DNA of 64,000 bases from Planctomycetales bacterium. Lineage in GTDB: Bacteria; Planctomycetota; Planctomycetia; Isosphaerales; Isosphaeraceae. The translations under genes and the position numbers were made by a program. Location: contig DAIDHB010000219.1 of NCBI GenBank assembly GCA_027452145.1, forward strand, positions 1-64,000, written 5' to 3'. Shown piece after piece: positions 22,340 to 38,606 of the stretch; the first letter of the stretch is position 1, and every line of letters starts with the position of its first letter. The notes below the pieces were generated by a model, which saw only the letters and a list, made by a program, of their open reading frames with translations, was not told the DNA's origin and made no database searches.

Positions 22340-28996
<6,657 letters not shown>

Positions 28997-29084
28997 CGGG
29001 CCGGAAAGCTGCCCCGGCACGAGGCGGCAACCGCCGGCCCGGACAACGCCGTCGCATCCGAAAGGCGACCTGGAGTCTTCTCCC

Positions 29085-31157
29085 ATGCCTTACGACCCCG
29101 CGCGAGCCCTCGCACTCCTGAGGCTCGGCGTCCGGGACGAATCCGCCGCCTTTCGCGACGGCCAGGAGGAGGCCATCCGCCATGTCGTGGAGGGCCGCGG
29201 TCGATTGCTCGTCGTGCAGAAGACCGGCTGGGGCAAGAGCTCGGTCTATTTCATCGCGACCCGGCTGCTACGCGACGCCGGCCTCGGCCCGGCGCTCCTG
29301 ATCTCGCCGCTGCTGGCCCTGATGCGCAACCAGATCGACGCGGCCGGGCGCATGGGCGTGCGGGCGCGGACCATTCATTCCGAGAACCGGGACGAGTGGG
29401 AAGCGGTCCGGGCGGAAATCGCGCGCAATGACGTCGATATCCTGCTGATCTCGCCGGAACGGCTCGCGAACGAGTCCTTCCGCAACGAGGTCCTGGGCCC
29501 GATCGCCGGACGGATCTCGCTGCTCGTGATCGACGAGGCCCATTGCATCTCGGACTGGGGACACGACTTCCGCCCCCACTACCGCCTGATCGAACGCATG
29601 ATCCGCGCGATGCCCCCTCAGCTCCGACTCCTGGGGACCACCGCGACGGCCAACGATCGCGTCATCGAGGACCTGGCCTCGGTCCTGGGTCCCGGCCTGA
29701 CGATCTCGAGGGGCAGCCTGAGCCGGCCATCGCTGTTCCTCCAGACGATCCGCCTGGCGGGCCAGGCAGAGCGGCTCGCATGGCTTGCCGAACAGGTGCC
29801 CGCGCTGCCCGGCCACGGAGTCATCTACACCCTCACGGTCCGCGATGCCGAACTTGTGGCGGCCTGGCTGCGCTCGCGCGGGATCGACGTGGAAGCCTAT
29901 TCCTCAGAGACGGGCGAGCGTCGCGCCGAGCTGGAAGCGGCCCTGCTGGGCAATCGTCTCAAGGCCCTGGTGGCGACCACGGCGCTGGGCATGGGCTTCG
30001 ACAAGCCGGATCTCGCCTTCGTCGTCCATTTCCAGACCCCCGGCTCGGTCATCGCCTACTACCAGCAGGTTGGTCGGGCCGGCCGGGCCCTGCCGTCGGC
30101 TTACGGCGTGCTGCTCAGCGGGGCCGAGGAACGGGAGATCACCGATTACTTCATCGAGAGCGCGTTCCCAACGCGAGAGGAGGTCGGTCAGGTGCTCGAC
30201 GCCCTGGAGGCGGCCCCGGAGGGCCTCTCGATCCCATCGCTGCTGGAGCGGGTCAACATCCGCCGCGGGCGGGTCGACAGGGCGATCCAGCTTCTCTCGC
30301 TGGAATCGCCGTCGCCGATCGCCAAACAGGGGAGCCGGTGGACCCTCACGGCGGCCGAGCTGGGCGAGGCGTTCTGGCAGAGGGCCGAGCGTCTGACGGC
30401 CCTGCGCCGCGTCGAACAGAGGCAGATGCAGGAATACGTCGATCTGCGCTCCGACCACATGGAATTCCTCATCCGGGCGCTCGACGGGCCGCCGGAGACG
30501 TTCCGCCCGCCGGACCTGCCCCGGCTCGCGACGACGCCCGACGCGGCGCTCGTGCGGGACGCCGAGGCGTTCCTGCGGCGCACGAACCTGCCCCTGGAGC
30601 CGCGGAAGATGTGGCCGACGGGGGGCCTTCCGAGGTTGGGCGTAACCGGCCGGATCGCCGAGCCGCGCCAGGCACGGCCGGGCAAGGTCCTCTGCGTGCT
30701 GGGCGATGCCGGCTGGGGAGCCGTGGTCCGCGACGGGAAATATCGAGACGGTCGCTTCTCCGATGAGCTCGTCCGGGCGTGCGTGAAGCTCCTTCGGGAA
30801 TGGGCGCCGGATCCGGCGCCACGCTGGGTCACGTGCGTCCCCTCGCGACGCCACCCCGAGCTTGTCCCCGACTTCGCGCGTCGGCTCGCGGCCGCCGTGG
30901 GGTTGCCGTTCCATCCGGCGCTGGAGAAGACCGAGGATCGGCCCGAGCAGAGGGCCATGGCCAATAGCGCCCAGCAGGCTCGTAACGTCGACGGCTCCCT
31001 TGCCGTGACGGAAGCGCCGATGCCGGACGGGCCGGTGTTGCTGGTGGACGACGTGGTAGACTCAAAATGGACGATCGCCGTTGCGGCCTGGCTGCTGACG
31101 ACCCGGGGCAGCGGGCCGGTTTATCCGCTCGCGCTGGCCTCAACCGCCCATGCCTGA
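29085..31157 (+). CDS. RecQ-family helicase fused to a ComF-like phosphoribosyltransferase domain
   Basis: 690 residues, beginning 88 bases after uvrA. Residues about 20-345 form a RecQ-type SF2 helicase: QKTGWGKSS (Walker A, Trp within the P-loop), [31 protein letters not shown] (D150), [20 protein letters not shown] and [10 protein letters not shown]. The RecQ zinc-binding cysteine cluster is absent: the region after it ([16 protein letters not shown]) has no Cys. A winged-helix-like stretch ([20 protein letters not shown]) follows. Residues about 560-690 resemble Com[40 protein letters not shown], and the PRPP-loop [13 protein letters not shown] (D655, D656) with SKWT replacing the usual TTGAT. 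The next gene overlaps by one base (TGATG), so the two are translationally coupled. DNA-processing or defence role inferred. Confidence 0.85.
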
Positions 31158-32449
31158 TGAACCAGCCGCTCTCTCCGAATTCGATGGCGATCCTGCTGCT
31201 GACCGCCCCCCTGATCGTCGGGCGCCGCGGGGCCGCGTCCGAGCTGTTGACGCCGGGCGAATACAACCGGCTGGCGCGCCTCCTGAGAGAGGAAGAGCGG
31301 CAGCCCTCCGACCTGATCGGTCCGGACGCACCTGAGTTGATCGATCGGTGCGCGGCGGTCGTCGATCGCCCTCGCCTCGAATCCTTGCTCGGGCGCGGCT
31401 TCCTGCTGAGCCAGGCGACCGAGCGATGGAGCACGCGTGCCATCTGGGTCGTGAGCCGTGCCGACGCCCAGTACCCCCGCCGGCTGAAGGCCCGCCTCAA
31501 GGAAGACGCCCCGCCCGTGCTCTACGGCTGCGGCGACATCGCGCTGCTGGAGACCGGGGGATTGGCCGTGGTCGGGTCGCGAAACGTCGGAGACGAATGG
31601 ATCGCCTATGCCGAACGGCTGGGCCGGACGGCGGCGTCCGCCGGCCGGACGCTGGTCTCCGGAGGCGCTCGCGGCGTCGACCAGGCCGCGATGCGCGGGG
31701 CCTCGCAGGCGGGCGGTGCCGTCGTGGGATGGCTCGCCGACAGCCTGGAGCGCGCCGCCCTCGTGCGCGAGAACCGCGAACCGCTGATGAACGGGCGGCT
31801 GGTCCTGGTCTCGCCGTACGACCCCGCGGCCGGATTCAACGTGGGTCATGCCATGGGTCGGAATAAACTCATTTATGCGACGGCCGATGCCGCCGTCGTC
31901 GTGAATTCCGACTTCCAGAAGGGCGGCACCTGGGCCGGAGCCGTCGAGCAACTGGAACGGCTGCGCCACGTGCCCGTGTTCGTCCGGAACGGCCCCGATG
32001 CCGGAAAGGGCAACGAGGCGCTGCTCCGCCGGGGTGCCCGGCCCTGGCCCGAGCCGGTTGACGGCGAGGCTCTCAGCGCGGCGATCTCCCGCGCCGCCGA
32101 GGCGGTCGCGGGGCAATCCGGGCAGGAGGCATTCGCCTTCATCACGCCCGCGGGAGAACCTCTTCCTGCCGAGGAGGAATCGCCCCAGCCAGCCGGGGCC
32201 GGCGTCGGCGCCCCCCGAACCGGCCAGGCCCATGCGACGCCGCCACCCGCGGAGAAACTGCTTCGCTCCGTCGGCGATATCCTGAGCCACGAGCTCGTCG
32301 AGGCCCGCACCGATGCCGAGGTGGCCGAACTGCTCGCGATCTCGACGCCACAGGCCAGGAACTGGCTCTCTGAGCTGGTCGGCCAGGGCGTGCTGGAGGA
32401 ACTGTCGGGCCCCACGCGATACCGTGCGGTCACCGGGCGGACCTCCTGA
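31157..32449 (+). CDS. DprA/Smf-like protein with C-terminal winged helix
   Basis: 430 residues; ATG 31157 overlaps the stop of the RecQ-PRTase gene. The central Rossmann domain is DprA-like but divergent: [12 protein letters not shown] (about 137-148), [15 protein letters not shown] (168-182, where DprA has SGLARGID), [20 protein letters not shown] (about 230-249, where DprA has RNRIIAGLS) and [16 protein letters not shown]. The N-terminal 100 residues ([20 protein letters not shown]) resemble the helical N-terminus of DprA. Residues about 365-425 form a winged helix ([20 protein letters not shown]). A Pro/Glu-rich linker separates the two. Canonical DprA loads RecA on incoming single strands; divergent DprA proteins also act as partners in defence pairs. 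The coupling argues for a two-protein system with the helicase. Confidence 0.82.
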
Positions 32450-34301: not shown

Positions 34302-35066
34302 TTAGGCGAACAGTTTCTGCGAGGGTTGTTCGGTCTTCAGCGTGGTCCAAGGCGCGATCGGGCTGTTCTCGACCAACTCCCTCTGCCAGTTCAGCAGGCT
34401 GAGCAAGCGTCGCTTTTGCAGCGATTGCCAGTTCTGCATCTCGCGAGTCTGGAGCCGGCTGTGGCCCTCCCACTCATCCTGGAAGAGCTCTCCGAGGACG
34501 AACTCGAGGACCGCCATGGGCGTCGTCGCGATGCAGGGCAGGCGGGGGACGGTTACTGCATGGGGGAAAGGGGGCCTGTCATCCTCGCCTAGGATCTGGA
34601 CGTGGAAGAAGCAGCCCGGAGACGCCTCATCGGCGATCTCCATTCTCCAATGCCCCATGGAGAGGTTTTTCTCGTGGTCCCTCCATTCAACCCGGACGCT
34701 GGCATTGCCCGTCAGGTAGAACTGCTTGGGGGAGTCATAATTGTTCTTTTTCGGCTCAGGCGTGATCTCCCACAGCGAGGTGATGCGAGCGCAGATCGAC
34801 GGGCCGCCCCGCCTTCTCCCCTTCTCGTACCCCTGGCTCGGTCGGGTCAGCAGGGGTTGGTGATCGGGGATGACCCACTCATGCTGCTTCGAGACGACCT
34901 CCAGCGGGTTGTTCGCGAGGGGGGATTTGAGGCGGATGATCTCAAGGCGGCGGGAAAATGCCTGGAGGCACGCCTCGGCTGAGGGATCCAGGAAGCTCTT
35001 CGCGATGGTCAGAAAGTCATCGACTTCCCGCTTCATATCGTCGAAGCGAAAGATCAGCCCCCTCAC
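34302..35066 (-). CDS. unknown protein, third gene of the dual-GHKL operon
   Basis: 254 residues from GTG 35066, whose GTGA overlaps the stop of the receiver-like gene by four bases; GGAGG lies upstream, so this start is preferred over the longer frame to 35183. No family was recognised. Segments: FRFDDMKREVDDFLTIAKSF (helical), YLTGNASVRVEWRDHEKNLS and GHWRMEIADEASPGCFFHVQ (a beta-rich middle), RLPCIATTPMAVLEFVLGEL and QNWQSLQKRRLLSLLNWQRE (helical C-terminus). No signal peptide, membrane segment or nuclease motif. Tight coupling to the receiver-like gene suggests it acts in the same pathway, possibly as output; that is inference. Confidence 0.7.
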   Translation of the reverse strand: MRGLIFRFDDMKREVDDFLTIAKSFLDPSAEACLQAFSRRLEIIRLKSPLANNPLEVVSKQHEWVIPDHQPLLTRPSQGYEKGRRRGGPSICARITSLWEITPEPKKNNYDSPKQFYLTGNASVRVEWRDHEKNLSMGHWRMEIADEASPGCFFHVQILGEDDRPPFPHAVTVPRLPCIATTPMAVLEFVLGELFQDEWEGHSRLQTREMQNWQSLQKRRLLSLLNWQRELVENSPIAPWTTLKTEQPSQKLFA

Positions 35067-36235
35067 CTCGCCACCTCCGGGCCAGGAGGGGCCGCCTCGG
35101 GAACCGGCAACTGATCCTGCTCTTCGTCGACAACCATGGCCTTCAGTCGAGGGTGCGAACGAGCGAGCTCGACGGTTGTCCACGCCTGGCTGGCGTAGCC
35201 GGGCCAGTCATCCGGTTGGATGCGAACGACCCGATCTGGTGGGTAGGTGCCTTCCAGAACCCGATAATTCTCGTCGATACACACGATCGGGTCCACTACG
35301 CCGGCCGGGACCAGTTCCACCCCCGTCTCCTTGGCCAGCCTCGCATGCAGCTCTCCCATCGGGACACTGGCGCCATCGGCCAGCTCCCAGAGAGCGAATT
35401 CGACCCCGGACCGCCACCATCGATCGCCCGCGAAATCGGCGAGCATCCCTTCGTATTTGTAAGGCTGGAGCCAGGTCCCTAGCCCCTGGCGGAGGGCCGA
35501 TATCAGCGACCCATGCGTGATCCTCAGGCGGGCGGCGAGCCGATGGGAGTCATGGAGGAAGCAGGGATAGGGGAGGATTCGCTGCAGCAACCATCTCAGG
35601 AATAGGAGTCCATGGTTCCTCTCGGCGAGCTCCGTCAGGGGCGGCCGGCAGACTTCGATGTCGCTCAGCGCCATGGGCGTCCATGGGGGGGCCGTCCCGT
35701 CGTCCGGCGTTTTGGCGAGCCCGAGGAGGCTCAGAACTAGCCTCGTTGCCCCGTCGTGGTCCGCCCCCGGCCAGCGTTGCGGCAGCCTGCGGATGGCGGA
35801 GGCGAGCGATGTCGCCTGCTGGATATTCCGCTCGCTCTCGGACTTGAGAAACACCCACTCGAGGTTGTATGCTCGAGCAATGAGATGCGCTCGAGTCTCC
35901 GCGGGGGTCATCCAGAGCGCGGCGGGATTGCCCGTGTTCAAGGCGAAGCCGGTCGGCCTGTCCAGCCTGCCCGCATGCTCCCGAAGCACTGCGGAGAGTG
36001 CGATACCGTTGCTCGGCCTGAGTCCCAGCTGAAGGCTGTTTTCCCGGGCCTCCCAGGCGTCAATCAGATAATCGACCATCACCAGATCCGCGGTATTGAG
36101 CGTATCACCATCCACCTCCTCGGGGTGGAGCACCTCAAACCGCGCGCTGCCCGGTTCGGTATGGCGGAAAGCGGTCCTCTGGGTCTCGGGCTCATCATCG
36201 AGAACGATGACGTGCGGGACGCCGGTCTCGCTCAC
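35063..36235 (-). CDS. receiver-like regulatory protein, partner of the dual-GHKL kinase
   Basis: 390 residues from GTG 36235, 10 bases after the kinase stop. The N-terminal 135 residues have receiver-domain landmarks: VIVLDDEPETQ (D13, D14), LVMVDYLID (D55, candidate phosphoacceptor), a Thr-containing FALNTGNP, and FLKSES (K131). Spacing is longer than in classical CheY-like domains, so it is a divergent receiver. The remaining 250 residues are not recognised: LLFLRWLLQRILPYPCFLHD, DRWWRSGVEFALWELADGAS, IDENYRVLEGTYPPDR. No DNA-binding domain is evident, so signalling is more likely by protein contact. Its tight position between the kinase and the third gene points to a phosphorelay or an activation switch. 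Confidence 0.68.
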   Translation of the reverse strand: MSETGVPHVIVLDDEPETQRTAFRHTEPGSARFEVLHPEEVDGDTLNTADLVMVDYLIDAWEARENSLQLGLRPSNGIALSAVLREHAGRLDRPTGFALNTGNPAALWMTPAETRAHLIARAYNLEWVFLKSESERNIQQATSLASAIRRLPQRWPGADHDGATRLVLSLLGLAKTPDDGTAPPWTPMALSDIEVCRPPLTELAERNHGLLFLRWLLQRILPYPCFLHDSHRLAARLRITHGSLISALRQGLGTWLQPYKYEGMLADFAGDRWWRSGVEFALWELADGASVPMGELHARLAKETGVELVPAGVVDPIVCIDENYRVLEGTYPPDRVVRIQPDDWPGYASQAWTTVELARSHPRLKAMVVDEEQDQLPVPEAAPPGPEVAR

Positions 36236-36245
36236 AGGTCAGCCC

Positions 36246-38606
36246 TCACTCAGGAAACTTGATCTCTACGGCGGTTGCGAACTCGGCCGAGGGCTCGACG
36301 AATCGGATCGTCGCCCCGTACTGCTCTAGGAGGTCCCTCGTGATGGTGAGTCCCAGTCCCATCCCCTGACCGAGCGTGCTATCCACCTCGGTCGTCGTCG
36401 ACTCGAACGGCAGGAACCATCGCTCCGCTTCGGCCAGGTCGACCGACGCCCCTGTGTTCTCCAGGATGACGACAGACCCCCCGTTGCTCAGGTCCCCGCC
36501 ACGAGCCCCGATCACGCCTCGCTCTCCGGACGCCTTGATCGCGTTGGTCAGGAGGTTCGAGAAAACGACGGTCAGCTCTGCCGGGAACATTGGAGGGGAT
36601 TTCAGGTGCGCGGGGATGTCATTGTTGAGTTGGATGCCCCGACGTTCGATAGCGGGCATGACCAACTTCGCCGCCGCGTCGAAGCGCTCGCCGAGCCGCT
36701 GCCTGCTCCTCCGTCGGCGGGCATCGGGAGAGGTGATGTCGACCAGGTAGGCCGCTTGGCGTTCGATCTGTTGCCGCATGTCGCCGAGGGACTGATAGAC
36801 GTCCGAAAGTCGCTTCTTCGCCTCCCCGCGAATCGACGGGTCCGAACGGAGCCGGTCGACGGCCTGATGAACTGCGACCGCCATGCCGAGCAGGCCGCGG
36901 ATCTCGTGCACGAAGCTGGCCATCTGCGTGCCGAGAGAAGCCAGAACCCGCAGCATCGCCGCCGAGTCCTGGACCCGTGCGGCCGACGAAGCCAGTTGAT
37001 CGAGGGCCGCACGAGTTGTCTCCAAGCGGCTATCGACCTGCACCTTGTCCCCGCCGGAGATCAGCAGCTGTCGCGCGTCGCGGATCGATGCCAACGCCTG
37101 GGCCGTGGCATCGGCGAGCGTGGGCGTTGGTCGGTTGTCCCTGAGCTGAGGCTCTTCGACGGCCGCTCCCCTCGGTCGCTCGACCTCCTTAACCTCCGCC
37201 TCGACCAGGGGCCGGGGCGGTGCCTGCTCCTGTCGGGCCTTTTCTCGCTCTTCTCGGATGCGGATCCGCGCGGGCGCCTTCGCCGCCGCCCGGGTCCTGG
37301 TCAGCAGGTCGATCCCCCGGCGGACGATTTCCCACAAGGTGTCGAACGCCCGATCCGCGACAAACCCCTCGCGATTGACCAGCATCCGGAGCGACGGGGC
37401 ATCCTCCTGGGTCAGGAATACCGCGCCCGTATATGAGCTGTTCGGGAGGACCGAGAGCTGCCAATCGCCCGCATCGCCGTCGCTCTCCACCAGGCCCTCG
37501 AAAACCTCGTCCGTCTTCCAACTCCTCCGCGCGACGTCGGCATCGATTCTGAGCCAATCGTCGCCGGGGTCGCCGTACGGCAGGACCCGGAACCCCTCGA
37601 GATAGACTCTGACGCCGCTCATCTGCCTTGACCACCGAAGCAGTGCCTCCTTGCGAATCTGCTCGTCCCGGGCCAGGATCCGAGCCTGGAAGAACGGTCC
37701 TTCCTGCGGGTAGGGGTGGGGGTGCCGGAACTTCCGACGCCGCGCCTCGGGGTACGCTTTCAAGGTCGATTTGGCCGGCGTGATCGAGTAGTGGACGACT
37801 CCCTTCTCGCTTTTCGCATCGATCTCCAGCACCCAGTTGGTCGCATCTACCAGGGCGTCCCAGTAGCTGTCTCCTTCGCTGAAGTCGCCTTCCAGACGGA
37901 TATCACACCCGGGATCGTCGCTATTCGAGTCCCTCATTTGGGGCACGGCGAAGAGGGAGGAGGCCGGAACGACCCGGGTCGGTAGCTGCTGCTTCAGCAC
38001 TTCGGGGACCTGGAACGACCTGCATTCGTTGACGAACCTCAGGCGTTCTTTGTCAGACCAGGCGCGGCGGAGTCGGCGTAGGATGATAACCGTCCCAGGC
38101 TTCGTGGCCTTGCCAAGGTGGGCGGTGTCGAGGGTGACCTCATCCTTCAGTTGTGAGAGGGTTTCTTTCTCCTCGATCTTCTCCCAGTCGATCCTGGCTA
38201 GCAGGGATTCCCTCGAGGTCTTTGAAGGATCGCCGCAAACAGAATAGACCTCCATCAACTGCGCCAGCTTGTGGGCCGCGAGTCGCCCGATGCCCTTCGA
38301 GCCGGTGTAGCGACGCCGGAAGAATCGCGAGCGGCGAGCTCCCCCCTCTTTGAACCGCGAAGCGATCCTGAGGAACCCCTTCTGGAACTGGTCGGCATCC
38401 ATTCCGGAGCCGTTATCGCGGACGACGATCTCACCCCGCTCGCGAGAACTCAGATTAATGGCGGTGACGACGATCTCCGTCGCATCGGCGTCGTAGGCGT
38501 TCTTGATCAGCTCGAGCAGGGCGGTGGAATCGCGGCCCACCAGGAGTTCGCCGAGTTCGCGGAAGACGTGCGTGTCGACGGTAAAGGTCGGATTCGATAG
38601 TGGCAT
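36246..38606 (-). CDS. sensor kinase with two GHKL ATPase modules
   Basis: 786 residues from ATG 38606. The first module (residues about 10-200) is Hsp90/MutL/MORC-like: TALLELIKNAYDADATEI (E32, N36, D39), RDNGSGMD (D64) and TGSKGIGRLAAHKL. Residues about 200-440 match the expected middle domain of such ATPases (RWSRQMSGVRVYLEGFRVLP). A charged linker, rich in Glu and Arg, leads to a histidine-kinase core: H-box MASFVHEIRGLLGM (H567), N-box VVFSNLLTNAIKASGERG, and G-box STLGQGMGLGLTITRDLL at about 745. There is no membrane segment, so it senses a cytoplasmic signal. The first gene of a three-gene operon with a receiver-like protein. The architecture is seen in predicted immune and conflict genes, but I know no characterised example. 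Confidence 0.82.
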   Translation of the reverse strand: MPLSNPTFTVDTHVFRELGELLVGRDSTALLELIKNAYDADATEIVVTAINLSSRERGEIVVRDNGSGMDADQFQKGFLRIASRFKEGGARRSRFFRRRYTGSKGIGRLAAHKLAQLMEVYSVCGDPSKTSRESLLARIDWEKIEEKETLSQLKDEVTLDTAHLGKATKPGTVIILRRLRRAWSDKERLRFVNECRSFQVPEVLKQQLPTRVVPASSLFAVPQMRDSNSDDPGCDIRLEGDFSEGDSYWDALVDATNWVLEIDAKSEKGVVHYSITPAKSTLKAYPEARRRKFRHPHPYPQEGPFFQARILARDEQIRKEALLRWSRQMSGVRVYLEGFRVLPYGDPGDDWLRIDADVARRSWKTDEVFEGLVESDGDAGDWQLSVLPNSSYTGAVFLTQEDAPSLRMLVNREGFVADRAFDTLWEIVRRGIDLLTRTRAAAKAPARIRIREEREKARQEQAPPRPLVEAEVKEVERPRGAAVEEPQLRDNRPTPTLADATAQALASIRDARQLLISGGDKVQVDSRLETTRAALDQLASSAARVQDSAAMLRVLASLGTQMASFVHEIRGLLGMAVAVHQAVDRLRSDPSIRGEAKKRLSDVYQSLGDMRQQIERQAAYLVDITSPDARRRRSRQRLGERFDAAAKLVMPAIERRGIQLNNDIPAHLKSPPMFPAELTVVFSNLLTNAIKASGERGVIGARGGDLSNGGSVVILENTGASVDLAEAERWFLPFESTTTEVDSTLGQGMGLGLTITRDLLEQYGATIRFVEPSAEFATAVEIKFPE

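Follow-up and report, generated by a model that had tools for sequence, protein, structure and literature searches.

A gene for a RecQ-type helicase that runs on into a phosphoribosyltransferase (PRTase) domain, followed without a gap by a gene for a DprA-like protein, raises the question of what such a pair does in a planctomycete and how it got there. We analysed this pair in a stretch of 64,000 nucleotides (the window) from an assembly of 10.9 Mb, in which both genes lie on the + strand directly 3′ of uvrA. The two open reading frames reported in a preliminary description of this DNA were found at their positions; altogether, its observation was confirmed and its interpretation partly supported.

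Identity of the gene pair

The first gene (29085–31157, +) encodes a protein of 690 amino acids with a RecQ-type helicase and a C-terminal PRTase, the second (31157–32449, +) a DprA-like partner of 430 amino acids; both assignments are based on PADLOC and AlphaFold2. At the junction the sequence reads ATGCCTGATGAACCAG: the stop codon TGA of the first gene (31155–31157) and the start codon ATG of the second (31157–31159) share one base, forming a TGATG overlap (31155–31159, +). The overlap of the helicase-PRTase stop with the ATG of a DprA-like, winged helix gene, noted earlier, is thus borne out by the sequence read, the PF02481 match and the AlphaFold2 model. An alternative in-frame ATG at 31067 would yield a DprA-like protein of 460 instead of 430 amino acids. 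Among the homologous pairs measured, the genes overlap by 4 nt in 53 of 76 and by 1 nt in 10 of 76.

The first protein matches the PADLOC model PsyrT with 880 bits (residues 5–689 on profile positions 5–686 of 689) and the second the model PsyrA with 422 bits (421.8; profile positions 1–395 of 398). E. coli RqlH and RqlI match the same two models with 1065 and 671 bits, respectively; thus PsyrTA and RqlHI are one family. K51, D150 and D656 of the window PsyrT correspond in the alignment to K49, D148 and D663 of E. coli RqlH. Judged by these matches, the gene pair is the already described PsyrTA/RqlHI and does not represent a novel type of system. It shares with PsyrTA both genes, their order, the overlap and the full-length profiles, and differs in host lineage and by about 28% in sequence from the nearest homologue among the matches listed.

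PsyrTA was reportedly described by Sberro in 2013. RqlHI was described by Russell & Mulvey 2015 (PMC4670107). E. coli RqlH is genotoxic via its PRTase domain and is restrained by RqlI; the two proteins interact physically and are encoded in one operon (PMC4670107). Toxicity depends on D663 in the PRPP pocket and was largely abolished by the D663A exchange, and K49A and D148A variants were studied as well (PMC4670107). A DprA-PRTase pair provides phage defence, with shosTA, "syrTA" and rqlHI named as related, and a model has been proposed in which DprA senses phage DNA and the PRTase is then activated (PMC9122126). PsyrTA is also listed among the abortive-infection systems (PMC10855318), and an E. 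coli PsyrTA gave no phage protection in its native host under the conditions of the respective study (PMC12409345).

Compared with E. coli RqlHI, the window pair has the same helicase-PRTase and DprA-like partner and keeps the three residues named above, whereas a cysteine zinc module is retained in E. coli RqlH and lost in the clade to which the window protein belongs. The RqlH of Mycobacterium smegmatis has the same helicase-PRTase architecture as the window PsyrT, as Ordonez 2012 is cited in PMC4670107, but in contrast to the window it has no RqlI partner (PMC4670107).

The pair had been regarded earlier as a helicase-armed relative of PRTase/DprA systems. The kinship with ShosTA fits this view; the novelty was lost, because PADLOC and the E. 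coli match identify the pair as PsyrTA/RqlHI. Like ShosTA, it combines a PRTase toxin with a DprA-family antitoxin, and the ShosA structure 8zva is among the matches of the PsyrA model. ShosT is not known to contain a helicase, whereas the window PRTase follows a complete helicase core in the same protein. That the pair is a variant form of ShosTA was ruled out, as the partner scores 71.5 bits with ShosA versus 421.8 bits with PsyrA (PADLOC). Canonical RecQ, DprA and ComF have folds in common with the window proteins, which in contrast do not reach the NCBIfam cut-offs for recQ and dprA, have no zinc module and carry a different PRPP loop.

Helicase core and loss of the zinc module

The helicase core is of the RecQ type (Pfam DEAD, 4.8e-24; Helicase_C, 1.1e-11), and the three motifs read earlier as a RecQ core hold up in Pfam and in the alignments. 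The Walker A motif TGWGKSS (29223–29243, +) contains K51, the equivalent of E. coli RqlH K49, which is present in 80 of 80 homologues; the DEAH box (D150–H153; 29532–29543, +) starts with D150, aligned with E. coli RqlH D148; and GRAGR, helicase motif VI (30072–30086, +), is invariant in two alignments. The homologue alignment shows the helicase active site to be fully conserved. The AlphaFold2 model of PsyrT has a mean pLDDT of 90.4 and a pTM of 0.87. With NCBIfam recQ the protein reaches 240.5 bits (3.1e-71), below the equivalog cut-off of 640.2 bits, which places it outside canonical RecQ.

At the place of the RecQ/RqlH zinc module (30456–30524, +) the four cysteines are absent according to alignments and tree. 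No CxxCxxC cluster was found in the window PsyrT, which is thus not a member of the zinc-branch RqlH sensu stricto. The C..CGxCxxC motif is kept in the outer branches, including E. coli RqlH, and is gone in the window protein and 70 other clade members. The tree has a single change in the zinc state, located at the root of this 71-row clade, which has full support. The loss of the zinc cysteines noted in the preliminary description is therefore real, but it is not an oddity of this locus: a loss peculiar to the window was ruled out by the single change common to all 71 members.

PRTase domain

The C-terminal domain (30642–31154, +) is a PRTase that is distantly ComF-like, as seen in matches of its family to Pribosyltran and in hhalign. 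For the window sequence alone the Pfam PRTase match reaches an E-value of only 0.18; 14 of 26 homologous domains match Pribosyltran, the best with 8e-11, and hhalign aligns the domain with a planctomycete ComF profile at 97.6% probability, including the LLVDD PRPP loop. At the family level this bears out the ComF-like PRTase fusion proposed earlier. The PRPP loop (31047–31073, +) contains D656, the equivalent of E. coli RqlH D663. It follows the pattern DDxVDSxWT (DDVVDSKWT in the window) versus DDVLTTGAT in planctomycete ComF, so that the TTGAT loop of ComF is not present. D655, D656 and W662 are found in 80 of 80 homologues, S660 and T663 in 79 of 80. The conserved acidic residues suggest that the PRTase is an active enzyme. 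Structure searches with full-length PsyrT listed only helicases; the helicase domain fills the list, which thus has no bearing on the PRTase.

A frame of 298 amino acids in another genome (G056:C2:291614-292048) matches the PsyrT profile only in its PRTase portion (547–684) and is possibly a stand-alone PRTase.

DprA-like partner

PsyrA contains a DprA Rossmann core (31430–32041, +; residues 92–295, PF02481, 5.2e-33) and, after a low-confidence linker (residues 324–357), a C-terminal winged helix (32246–32428, +). Both are predicted in the AlphaFold2 model, which has a mean pLDDT of 89.6 and for which the top Foldseek matches are the DprA structures 3uqz and 3maj and ShosA 8zva. The NCBIfam dprA score of 76 bits lies below the equivalog cut-off of 191.15, outside canonical DprA. 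In an alignment of 78 homologues, G169, A171, G173, D175 and R235-N236-K237 each reach a conservation of 95% or more. The DprA motifs described earlier as shifted are thus present in this form, yet they are a property of the whole family and not of this locus.

Distribution and association with the partner

A scan of genome contigs yielded at least 593 relatives of PsyrT, the best 80 of which were kept for the statistics on loci. PsyrA lies downstream in 80 of the 80 kept loci; 75 partners were found as open reading frames and five more by tblastn, most of these five being cut by contig ends. No solitary PsyrT was seen among these best 80 of at least 593. Because the 80 were kept as the top matches to the window branch, the partner and zinc statistics apply to this branch and not to all RqlH. 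At the actinobacterial and haloarchaeal plasmid homologues L032–L035 a match to PsyrA was not found, in agreement with the solitary RqlH of Gram-positives (PMC4670107). RqlH occurs without RqlI in many bacteria, including Gram-positives (PMC4670107); thus not every member of the RqlH family is part of a toxin-antitoxin pair.

PsyrT homologues are located on plasmids and also on two viral contigs. On pSymB of Sinorhizobium meliloti the PsyrA homologue is split over two frames (L028:12076-13430) and PsyrT is intact; HNH nuclease genes and insertion sequences surround this locus.

Neighbourhoods of the homologues

One PsyrT homologue (L031) lies within a BREX operon and another (L030) between the genes of a type I restriction-modification (R-M) operon. 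Neighbour clustering found type I R-M genes at 13 of 80 loci and BREX genes at 3 of 80. A regulator with a WYL domain is encoded directly upstream of PsyrT at 7 of 80 loci and on two viral contigs (clustering, two members checked). Type I methyltransferase models match 7–8 of 114 proximal neighbours versus 1 of 101 distal genes, a conservative control because the distal genes come from the same loci. Proximity of homologous pairs to defence genes had been set beforehand as the point on which a defence role could fail; R-M and BREX genes are enriched near them.

At L050, L058, L065, L067, L109, L048 and L056 a WYL regulator of about 300 amino acids ends at PsyrT or a few bases before it. Type I R-M or BREX genes are often located downstream of such WYL-PsyrT loci.

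Probable acquisition and the position after uvrA

Similarity to the sister genome G003 ends within the uvrA-pair junction (28997–29084, +; blastn). It amounts to 92.7% DNA identity over the uvrA tail and breaks off 6 bp after the stop codon of uvrA, at 29002; the remaining 1.3 kb of the G003 contig have no match to the window. A full-length PsyrT match was found in none of 58 sampled relatives, leaving the window genome as the only one among 59 searched; other strong PsyrT matches in the relatives concern the helicase part. In the tree the window PsyrT groups with Verrucomicrobiota (SH-aLRT 99), apart from other planctomycete copies, although more than one change on the tree does not prove transfer. 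Taken together, the lack of a full-length match in the 58 relatives, the G003 break, the Verrucomicrobiota placement and the defence-gene settings of the homologues favour acquisition, and the locus is probably a horizontally acquired accessory cassette of a widespread kind.

The position directly after uvrA had been taken as a hint at a role in DNA damage or against phages. This was not borne out: since none of the 58 relatives matches full-length PsyrT and the G003 similarity ends 6 bp past uvrA, the position is incidental, and a functional link to uvrA was ruled out on the same grounds. In two further genomes (G001 and G004) the region after uvrA contains a PIN-like gene together with one judged by eye to be hemC. 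Repeats around the pair looked like chance GC-rich matches and were discarded.

In a genome of the same genus, a DUF3368/PIN-like gene (L132:9564-10061) occupies the slot after uvrA, which suggests that this site is variable.

Proposed mechanism and alternative explanations

The PADLOC matches, the residue alignment, the partner in 80 of 80 loci, the gene overlaps, the sporadic distribution and the R-M, BREX and WYL neighbours favour a toxin-antitoxin/defence module. The locus is thus probably a chromosomal PsyrTA/RqlHI toxin-antitoxin module, with a probable role in anti-phage or abortive-infection defence and a probable horizontal origin. PsyrT would be the toxin: its helicase part may load onto DNA and move along it, in the 3′–5′ direction if mycobacterial RqlH is a guide, and the PRTase at its C-terminus would use PRPP on DNA or nucleotides, so that the cell is damaged or stalled. 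PsyrA, a DprA paralogue supplied by coupled translation, would bind PsyrT and hold back its toxicity. It probably senses single-stranded or abnormal DNA of an invading phage or plasmid, upon which the PRTase would be released; the PRTase would thus be the effector, and DprA-like protein and helicase would be sensor and brake. The window PsyrT may be toxic and neutralised by PsyrA as shown for E. coli RqlHI (PMC4670107). We infer that the window copy is active in defence. Points against the module as a whole are the lack of phage protection by an E. coli PsyrTA in its native host (PMC12409345), the many bacteria with RqlH but no RqlI (PMC4670107) and the missing clear defence gene among the few immediate neighbours scanned in the window.

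The analysis places a known module in a planctomycete. Across phyla the alignment shows no change in the active site of the helicase, in the PRPP loop DDxVDSxWT or in the presence of a coupled DprA partner, and the one zinc loss marks a large branch that always has the partner in the sample of 80 loci. The map of conserved residues, the single zinc loss and the WYL, R-M and BREX settings are the most useful additions and constrain ideas on how the PRTase acts. That the zinc-less PsyrT clade is functionally distinct, with DNA recognition depending on the DprA partner and a PRTase with the DDxVDSxWT loop that phosphoribosylates DNA or nucleotides, seems unlikely to us. To our knowledge, phosphoribosylation of DNA or nucleotides has not been shown for any toxin.

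The pair might instead be a DNA-repair or replication-stress module, in which single-stranded DNA is processed by helicase and DprA-like protein and damaged nucleotides are modified by the PRTase, the pair becoming toxic only upon imbalance. When RqlI is missing, RqlH leads to higher SOS induction, a higher mutation rate and greater sensitivity to damage, and a cycle of nucleotide modification and resolution was proposed by the authors of that study (PMC4670107). The intact helicase active site and the adjoining uvrA would also fit; however, the adjacency to uvrA is not common to the relatives, and the sporadic distribution and the restriction and BREX genes near homologues argue against this explanation, which we consider unlikely. 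Sporadic insertion, together with the homologues on plasmids and two viral contigs and the toxin-antitoxin-like behaviour of RqlHI in E. coli (PMC4670107), would suit a selfish addiction cassette that maintains mobile elements and has no defence role. But homologues recur next to R-M and BREX genes and together with WYL regulators, a setting more characteristic of defence islands, and we regard such a cassette as very improbable.

ComF and DprA both serve DNA uptake, and a competence module acting in natural transformation would agree with the alignment of the PRTase profile to ComF and with the DprA matches of the partner. Yet a DprA (G000:C265) and a ComF-like protein are encoded separately in the window genome, and the PRPP loop departs from that of ComF; a function in competence is extremely unlikely. 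The toxin-antitoxin/defence module remains our preferred explanation.

Other genes in the window

Among the few immediate neighbours scanned in the window no clear defence gene was found, only weak matches. The uvrA gene (22340–28996) encodes a protein of 2218 amino acids, in which a double-length tandem UvrA is followed by an extra segment at the C-terminus (28150–28993); this segment has no Pfam match and is present in some genomes of the same genus. On the − strand, the region 34302–38606 encodes a protein of 786 amino acids that has an HATPase domain at both its N- and its C-terminal end. It adjoins a protein of 390 amino acids, receiver-like by eye, and one of 293 amino acids, neither with a Pfam match. 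The N-terminal ATPase of the 786 amino acid protein resembles parts of type II restriction models, and this HATPase locus is possibly another conflict system.
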